Source: Fluviirhizobium alvei (lineage in GTDB: Bacteria > Pseudomonadota > Alphaproteobacteria > Rhizobiales > Rhizobiaceae). From it: DNA of 64,000 bases. Below, one piece after another: positions 27,721 through 55,801 of the stretch. Position numbers and translations under genes: made by a program. Within the stretch, counting starts at the first letter, position 1, and the number at the start of each line of letters is the position of its first letter. Where the stretch lies: contig NZ_JAUOZU010000016.1 of the NCBI RefSeq assembly GCF_030551875.1, positions 62,001 to 126,000 on the forward strand, given 5' to 3'. The notes below the pieces were generated by a model. The model saw only the letters and a program-made list of their open reading frames with translations, did not search any database and was not told the DNA's origin.

Positions 27721-27884
27721 GGTGGGTCGCTAGGCGATCCATTGAAATGCCACAATTGGATAGCCAGATAACGATTATCGGCAGTCATCGCCCCTTTGAC
27801 TGCCTGTTCCGGAGCAACGGCATGTCCCCCGCCGTCCCGGAGATGCGGACAAAGACGCCCCTTTTACTTTGTTCCGCGTTATAC

Positions 27885-27930
27885 AGGACCGCCATGGCTC
27901 CGCCCTCCAGCCGTGGCGGTCCTTTCGTTT
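27885..27930 (+). terminator. Strong Rho-independent terminator
   Basis: A 15-bp stem (27885-27899 with 27909-27923, one G-U pair) with a 9-nt loop CCGCCCTCC, followed by TTCGTTT on the plus strand. It lies about 200 nt after the recF stop. On the minus strand no U-run follows, so it serves plus-strand transcripts: recF read-through or a separate small RNA. The loop is C-rich and could pair with Shine-Dalgarno-like sequences. Confidence 0.75.
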
Positions 27931-55043: not shown

Positions 55044-55682
55044 TCACCGGGTCTTTGCAAGATCCGGCATCGGCTTGATGACGCTCATCAGCGCGCCATA
55101 AGGCAGAAGCAGCAGAAGCGCCGCCGCGATCTTGACCGAAAGATCACCCAGGGCCCAGGAAATCCAGCGCGGCAATTCGGTCGAAAACACACCGAGCACC
55201 GGCGCCCATTCGATGGCGAAATCGTCGTTCGGGCCGAAGAAAGAAAAGGCCGGCGCAAAGGCAAAGCTGAAGAACATCGCCGTATCGAGCAGCGAGCCTA
55301 AAACCGAGGCGATCAGTGGCGCCCGCCACCAGGACTGGCGGCGCAAGCTGTTGAACACCGAGATATCGAGCATCTGGCCGAACAGGAAGGCCGAACCCGA
55401 GGCAATGGCGATGCGCGGTGCCGAAGTGTAAGCCGAAATTGCGATCGCAATCACAAAGCCGACCGCCACCACGATGCGGGCCCGGTTCGGACCGAATTCG
55501 CGATTGGTCAGATCGGTGATCAGAAAGACAACAGGATAGGTGAATGCACCCCAGGTCAGCAAATCGGCGAGATTGATGGCGCCGACAGTCGCATTGACCG
55601 GAAACTGGACGAGGTAGTTGGAGGCGACGATGACAGCTGTCATCAGCGCGACATAGAGAAACGTATCACGAAGTGATCGCAT
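55044..55682 (-). CDS. yhhQ: Queuosine precursor transporter (YhhQ/VUT family)
   Basis: 212 residues, about six membrane segments (LYVALMTAVIVASNYLVQF at the start, AFTYPVVFLITDLTNREFGPNRA). The YhhQ family imports queuine or preQ0/preQ1 for the tRNA base queuosine. Its ATG has only an A-tract upstream, no Shine-Dalgarno, and lies inside a candidate preQ1-I aptamer, which would explain ligand control and supports the function. Confidence 0.9.
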   Translation of the reverse strand: MRSLRDTFLYVALMTAVIVASNYLVQFPVNATVGAINLADLLTWGAFTYPVVFLITDLTNREFGPNRARIVVAVGFVIAIAISAYTSAPRIAIASGSAFLFGQMLDISVFNSLRRQSWWRAPLIASVLGSLLDTAMFFSFAFAPAFSFFGPNDDFAIEWAPVLGVFSTELPRWISWALGDLSVKIAAALLLLLPYGALMSVIKPMPDLAKTR

Positions 55683-55710
55683 TTTTTTATCCTGGGTGAT
55701 GCCACCAGTT
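55678..55710 (-). promoter_or_regulatory. Candidate preQ1-I riboswitch with pseudoknot over the yhhQ start codon
   Basis: On the minus strand: stem CTGG (55708-55705) with CCAG (55695-55692), a loop containing GCAT (55702-55699), ACC-type C before the 3' stem strand, and an A-rich tail ATAAAAAA running into ATGCG. Loop GCAT is complementary to ATGC at 55682-55679, the start codon plus one base, giving the H-type pseudoknot of preQ1-I aptamers. Length and the stem-ACC-stem-A-tract order match the family (compare the Thermoanaerobacter type). Translation would be blocked when preQ1 is bound. Found by eye; a covariance search would settle it. Confidence 0.65.
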
Positions 55711-55746
55711 AGAGGAATGTCGGGGCCGGGTCGGCCCGGTCAAAGG

Positions 55747-55780
55747 AAAAAGGCCTGGTCGCACTCGACCAAGCCTTTTT
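55747..55780. terminator. Bidirectional Rho-independent terminator after rpmB
   Basis: AAAAAGGC (55747-55754) pairs with GCCTTTTT (55773-55780), and TGGTCG (55756-55761) with CGACCA (55766-55771), around a CACT loop with one mismatch. U-runs exist on both strands. It is 22 nt past the rpmB stop on the minus strand and so ends rpmB before the riboswitch leader. Confidence 0.88.
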
Positions 55781-55801
55781 CAAAATTCATGCATGCCTTG
55801 A

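Follow-up and report, generated by a model that had tools for sequence, protein, structure and literature searches.

A conserved yhhQ leader element in Rhizobiaceae and the likely capture of its start codon by a preQ1-I-like pseudoknot

Introduction

In the literature searched, preQ1 riboswitches hide the Shine-Dalgarno (SD) sequence or drive a terminator. The leader of yhhQ in the window (the whole stretch of 64,000 nucleotides of Fluviirhizobium alvei DNA that was analysed) raises the question of whether such a switch could hide the start codon itself. A sequence-only reading had described in this leader a CTGG/CCAG stem, a loop with GCAT, an unpaired C and an A-rich tail running into ATGC. 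It had proposed that a preQ1-I pseudoknot takes up the AUG of a queuosine-precursor transporter gene devoid of an SD, the binding of preQ1 being stated as an inference.

Materials and methods

YhhQ was searched for in the genus and in 121 genomes of the Rhizobium family (Rhizobiaceae). Leaders were taken from 116 loci (8 from the genus search, 28 and 80 from the family search), six family places being left out, and alignment statistics refer to the 100 gapless leaders among the 110 bearing the motif. Two covariance models were used, R1 built from alphaproteobacterial yhhQ leaders and R2 trained on gammaproteobacterial type III sequences; the R1 searches of the order and the class were run with stricter filters, at which some weak matches are lost. 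A pattern scan of named genomes, in which the base after the AUG (+4) was left free, gave at least 118 loci, and species overlap between this set and the 110 leaders was not excluded. To check the reading frame, each of the three frames that follow the motif was scored for its match to YhhQ. From the YhhQ tree 8 of the 118 pattern-scan loci were excluded because of short or cut-off ORFs, and the translations in its two Aureimonas rows (L126 and L156) are out of frame. In a search of the phylum both the loop and the tail letters were left free; 62 of 398 genomes were matched and 30 loci were taken. Crystal numbering of U6, C14, G5 and A27 of the E. coli switch was partly derived by the analyst.

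Results

Anatomy of the element and its locus

Read on the minus strand from 55708 to 55679, the element is CUGG UGGCAUCAC CCAG GAUAAAAAA AUGC (in full CUGGUGGCAUCACCCAGGAUAAAAAAAUGC), and its presence directly before yhhQ is plain; the start codon of the gene (55682-55680) lies near its 3' end. The features are collected in Table 1. The G at 55705 is taken to be the counterpart of the E. coli pocket-floor G5, the U at 55704 that of U6 and the C at 55696 that of the specificity base C14, while the A tract of L3 is taken to stand for E. coli A25-A27 and their neighbours.

Table 1. Features of the yhhQ leader in the window
Feature	Position	Strand	Basis or remark
Leader element (P1, loop, tail and AUGC)	55679-55708	minus	30 nt, before yhhQ
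P1 5' strand, CUGG	55705-55708	minus	sequence and leader alignment
Aptamer loop UGGCAUCAC, 9 nt	55696-55704	minus	sequence; length equals that of the E. coli loop
P2 5' strand, GCAU, complementary to AUGC	55699-55702	minus	agreement of loop class and +4 base
P1 3' strand, CCAG	55692-55695	minus	sequence and leader alignment
Shine-Dalgarno AGGA, half inside P1	55690-55693	minus	sequence; function inferred
A-rich L3 tail, six A ahead of AUG	55683-55688	minus	leader alignment
P2 3' strand, AUGC (start codon and first base of codon 2)	55679-55682	minus	
yhhQ, queuosine precursor transporter, 212 aa	55044-55682	minus	ORF and TIGR00697

The letters and pairings described in the sequence-only reading are all present, and the complementarity of GCAT and ATGC, start codon included, held and is conserved in yhhQ orthologs. 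The identity of the gene held as well, its product matching TIGR00697 with 86.3 bits (cut-off 50.95). The statement that yhhQ has no SD failed: AGGA stands 7 nt before the AUG and overlaps the last two pairs of P1. Capture of the AUG by the pseudoknot is supported, whereas the notion of an SD-less leader is not, both the start codon and part of the SD being covered. A start codon further upstream, named in that reading as a refutation, does not exist in frame, and the ORF begins at the first ATG, GTG or TTG after the preceding stop.

Upstream of yhhQ, on the same strand, rpmB (L28) is found, and between the two genes lies a long, near-perfect hairpin of 16 pairs with a T-rich 3' arm (55746-55781, minus strand), possibly a terminator. 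It is separated from the element by only 37 nt, so if it does terminate transcription, the yhhQ promoter must be very close to the hairpin or overlap it. A promoter scan for yhhQ found none, and the transcript start could therefore not be placed.

Conservation and taxonomic range

Genes for YhhQ were found in 116 of the 121 family genomes, and the leader motif in 110 of the 116 loci. Among the six loci without it is the reduced genome G014, whose yhhQ leader (L075) carries a possibly decayed motif, CTGGTGCTCAAAAAATGA. In the 100 gapless leaders the 30-nt motif is conserved at a mean of 1.79 bits per position, whereas the 20 nt preceding it reach 0.19 bits and the 30 nt after it 0.30 bits, and on this basis the arrangement of stem, loop, tail and AUGC lies far beyond chance. 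The loop U and the specificity C, the six A preceding the AUG and the G-C pairs G4-C14 and G3-C15 of P1 (motif numbering) are invariant in 100/100 of these leaders, and AGG is present in all 47 of each of the two main loop classes. This was the alignment of ortholog leaders that the sequence-only reading had put forward as a check, and both the stem and the complementarity of loop and tail passed it. P1 hardly varies at all: the single compensatory change seen is a U-A to C-G replacement in L071, a locus where the captured AUG is in frame and lengthens the N terminus by about 50 residues.

With E<=2.2e-4 as the limit, model R1 gave a single strong match in each of 110 genomes among the 121 of the family, and two further weak ones in the whole set; in the five family genomes without yhhQ it gave no strong match and one weak (E 0.079). 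No strong match outside the Rhizobium family was obtained in 249 genomes of the order, and in 289 genomes of the class the only strong one was in the window's own genome; weak matches beyond the family (10 in the order, 14 in the class; E 0.012-0.099) were treated as chance. In 27 loci of other families (of 28 order loci), inspection by eye of the 75-nt stretch leading up to the projected start revealed no motif. The 80 titles from the pattern scan name Rhizobium, Sinorhizobium, Agrobacterium, Mesorhizobium, Brucella, Bartonella, Aureimonas, their relatives or unclassified isolates.

Loop classes and the base after the start codon

The 110 leaders fall into three classes by their loop, GGCAU (GG, to which the window belongs), GCCAU (GC) and UCCAU (UC), and the base after the AUG follows the class. 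A GGCAU loop is accompanied by AUGC in 51/51 leaders and a GCCAU loop by AUGG in 7/7, so that in the two G classes combined the loop matches the +4 base in 58 of 58. UCCAU loops are accompanied by AUGA (24), AUGC (16) or AUGU (12) and never, in 52 leaders, by AUGG. The pattern-scan set gave the same picture (GG with C in 56/56, GC with G in 8/8, UC with G in 0/54), the UC class there having 35 A, 11 U, 8 C and no G. This agreement is directly observed, and it follows from it that with G at position 6 (numbering starts at the C of CUGG) position 7 pairs with +4, while with U at position 6 no such pair is seen. In the G classes the loop constrains the coding sequence, as codon 2 starts with the matching C or G. 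It may be inferred that UC leaders lack G at +4 because the ceiling triple requires C8, which a G there would draw into pairing.

The YhhQ tree has 146 rows, on which 6 changes of loop class are needed. At +4, a minimum of 14 changes fall within the 53 UC rows, none of which has G, and no change within the 88 GG rows. Only 2 independent pairs of loop and +4 base are supported on the tree, both as expected (sign test p 0.5), and with so few pairs significance is out of reach. The captured AUG is in the YhhQ frame in 107/107 GG and 106/106 UC loci.

Leaders of the GC class

Fifteen GC-class loci were read, one of them cut off, and of the 14 readable ones only half (7) have the captured AUG in the yhhQ frame. 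Six carry AGG before the A tract, and in these AUGG opens the yhhQ frame, followed by A (AUGGA) in 3 and not in 3. The other eight have AGC instead of AGG and no AGGA, and AUGGA occurs in all 8; yhhQ lies in a different frame in 7 of them, L058 alone staying in frame. In the out-of-frame loci an ATG or GTG is found 13-17 nt past the captured A (L107 has an additional ATG at 7 nt), and in the AGC-type loci GGA lies 7-11 nt ahead of the likely yhhQ start, as an SD would. It can be inferred, from sequence alone, that AGC-type leaders have returned to SD capture. The P2 partner AUGG has been kept in all 8 of them, although in 7 the AUG has ceased to open the yhhQ frame, which supports the view that P2 is selected as a pairing, and the AGC-type leaders also support AGGA as a working SD in the other leaders. 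As a separate observation, in the Aureimonas loci L176 and L222 the captured AUG opens an ORF of 5 or 6 codons, the TGA of which overlaps the likely yhhQ start (GTGA, ATGA) in a manner resembling translational coupling.

Relation to the E. coli yhhQ switch

The preQ1-I type III switch of E. coli yhhQ is a proven preQ1 aptamer that has been crystallised (PMC10622847). In the crystal, P2 consists of U11-A28, C10-G29 and C9-G30, the triples U7-A27-preQ1 and C8-A28-U11 are formed, and the conserved specificity cytidine is, by position, C14; changes to U6, C14, G5-C15 or A27 cost at least 645-fold in affinity (PMC10622847). The counterparts of these four are kept in the window leader. The E. coli leader reads GGG UUCCCUCAC CCC ... 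AAAAAGG and the UC-class leader GG UUCCAUCAC CC ... AAAAAAAUG; comparison of the two shows loops one base apart (C10 to A) and tails that differ by the matching change of G29 to U (AAGG in E. coli, AAUG here). The bases making the listed E. coli contacts are invariant in the 47 gapless UC leaders. Because the change from C-G to A-U is two-sided, the helix that grips the SD in E. coli would grip the AUG in these leaders. Among the 30 loci from the phylum search 27 are linked to yhhQ (17 with C-G, 10 with A-U, none crossed), and the remaining 3 have no yhhQ nearby. This covariation amounts to a single two-sided change between two groups, not to many.

Model scans and folding

The Rfam PreQ1 model RF00522, with which the sequence-only reading had suggested scanning, gave no match in the window or in its own genome, but the proven E. 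coli yhhQ leader was missed equally. The silence of Rfam is thus uninformative and carries little weight, and the scan was set aside as a test of membership. The only Rfam match above threshold in the window is ar7, an alphaproteobacterial small RNA (27786-27925, plus strand; 64.2 bits, gathering 60). R1 did not recover the E. coli yhhQ leader. R2 found all 30 UC-class loci given to it (of 52) at 10.1-17.8 bits (E 0.003-0.2), with two lower off-target matches; the window leader scored 6.4 bits, third in a stretch of 501 nt, and was not listed when the whole window was scanned, where a chance site on the other strand scores 17 bits. The hairpin is energetically unremarkable (MFE z -0.86). When folded without the pseudoknot, P1 of the window is extended by pairing of UG with CA and the specificity C is bulged, a fold that is impossible in leaders with other bases at positions 11-12.

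Queuosine genes

In the window's genome tgt directly follows queA, no QueF match was obtained, and QueC-like matches all remained below threshold. According to our reading of PMC5372724, in the absence of QueF preQ1 is the precursor to be salvaged, while tgt alone points to queuine; yhhQ stands under various classes of preQ1 riboswitch in different bacteria (PMC5372724). By analogy with that work, the retention of queA-tgt without QueF makes a preQ1 feedback on the importer plausible. Cross-tabulation of 104 motif-bearing genomes gave 27 with both QueF and QueC over the cut-off, 33 with QueF only and 44 with neither, the last group comprising 17/45 GG, 24/52 UC and 3/7 GC genomes. In two genomes a second, weak YhhQ-like match (G053:C16:31591-32761 and G083:C3:9714-10868) adjoins a QueC gene and could represent a separate transporter paralogue.

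Discussion

Proposed mechanism

The element is likely to be a translational preQ1-I (H-type) riboswitch, a Rhizobiaceae variant derived from type III and placed at yhhQ, the binding of the ligand being, now as in the sequence-only reading, inferred. Capture of the AUG by a preQ1-I-like pseudoknot is likely too, and well supported by comparative data, owing to the near-invariant stem and loop, the agreement between loop class and +4 base, and the near identity of the UC class to the E. coli switch. In the proposed mechanism preQ1 would bind between P1 and P2, the loop GCAU would pair with AUGC so that P2 encloses the start codon, and P1 would hold half of the AGGA; with both initiation signals covered, translation of yhhQ would stop. 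Without the ligand P2 would open and translation would begin, the predicted outcome being feedback on the import of queuosine precursors. The identity of the ligand, the ligand-driven fold and the OFF direction of regulation are all inferences, there being neither ligand nor probing data.

A bolder reading can be formulated, towards which the balance tilts only slightly when it is taken as a whole. The initiation codon would itself be part of the ligand pocket, the A before the AUG occupying, judged by position, the place of E. coli A27, which contacts preQ1, and the A of the AUG that of A28 in the pocket ceiling. The family would have evolved a P2 of 4 bp, into which the opening base of codon 2 is drawn, so that residue 2 is constrained, and Aureimonas and relatives would have turned the captured AUGG back into an SD, with a new start downstream. 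With the start codon in the pocket, the ribosome and the metabolite would compete for the same codon.

Alternative explanations

The rival that survives best, unlikely as it is, retains the start-codon pseudoknot and supposes that the GG and GC classes changed their ligand to preQ0, queuine or another 7-deazaguanine. In its favour, the U7 of the E. coli U7-A27-preQ1 triple is G in these classes, a fourth P2 pair was gained, and 44 of the 104 motif-bearing genomes lack QueF and QueC over the cut-off. Against it, neither the A-rich strand nor the bases at U6 and the specificity C have changed, QueF/QueC status does not track loop class, and the adjacency of queA and tgt in the window's genome fits preQ1 rather than queuine salvage. 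Very unlikely is a conserved translational operator that is no riboswitch, such as the target of a protein or small RNA, or a hairpin that responds to temperature. The strong conservation, and base pairing that spans SD and AUG, would serve it equally, and no ligand data speak against it; however, the UC class is one loop base away from a proven preQ1 aptamer at the same gene and keeps the bases that make contacts in the E. coli structure, and each genome has one strong copy. The last possibility is that there is no regulatory pseudoknot, only a weak hairpin at a conserved ribosome-binding site. It has on its side the normal initiation region AGGA-N7-AUG and the modest MFE z of -0.86, but is all but excluded and leaves unexplained the conservation of the loop bases, the rule linking loop and +4, and the AUGG kept out of frame.

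Novelty and significance

Neither a start-codon-capturing preQ1 switch nor a preQ1 switch in Rhizobiaceae is mentioned in the open-access literature searched, which did not include the 2014 paper defining type III, and neither appears in the relevant passages of PMC11625349, PMC1273637, PMC3738593 and PMC5372724. In the 2024 review (PMC11625349) "start codon" and "alphaproteobacteria" occur 0 times and "initiation codon" once, in a different context. If the riboswitch reading is true, the smallest known riboswitch design is extended to a new expression platform, in which the AUG itself is buried; the element concerned is widespread and goes unreported by the Rfam model. There would also be a natural series, from SD capture in gammaproteobacteria through AUG capture in most sampled Rhizobiaceae to SD-like capture in some Aureimonas-type genomes, which lets one ask which initiation signal a riboswitch must hide.

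Comparison with known systems

Like the metA (SAM-II), serC, speF, suhB and ybhL motifs of alphaproteobacteria (PMC1273637), the element is a conserved RNA of Agrobacterium and its relatives; that paper names no motif for yhhQ, and yhhQ, queuosine and preQ1 occur in it 0 times. With preQ1-I types I and II (PMC11625349) it shares the H-type pseudoknot with a P1-P2 tail and a C left unpaired ahead of the 3' strand of P1, preceded by A as it is in type II. It differs from them in that their pseudoknot either extends into part of the SD or acts through a terminator, and capture of a start codon is absent from the passages of PMC11625349 that bear on these types.

The closest relative is type III, with which are shared the position in a yhhQ leader, the 9-nt loop, the specificity C, the pocket-floor G-C, the A-rich L3 and the P2 formed by loop and tail. 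Several type III criteria are met by the window leader: a short P1 with G-C as the pair bordering the loop, an A-rich L3, position before yhhQ, and AC before the P1 3' strand (the window has CAC; C in 100/100, the preceding A in 47/47 UC, 39/47 GG and 3/6 GC gapless leaders). Three are not: UU after the P1 5' strand (the window has UG, while 47/47 UC leaders comply), a pyrimidine-rich loop (the window has UGGCAUCAC), and AAGG as an SD in P2, in place of which alphaproteobacterial leaders have AAUG. The window sequence was therefore not filed as a member of type III. The GG class departs from type III in having G7 and G8 (E. coli numbering), by which the U7 contact is lost and a fourth P2 pair, with the base after the AUG, is gained. 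It is nevertheless likely that the window element works like a type III switch, a link that runs through the UC class only, with the difference that P2 would capture the AUG and the SD is found in P1 and L3 instead.
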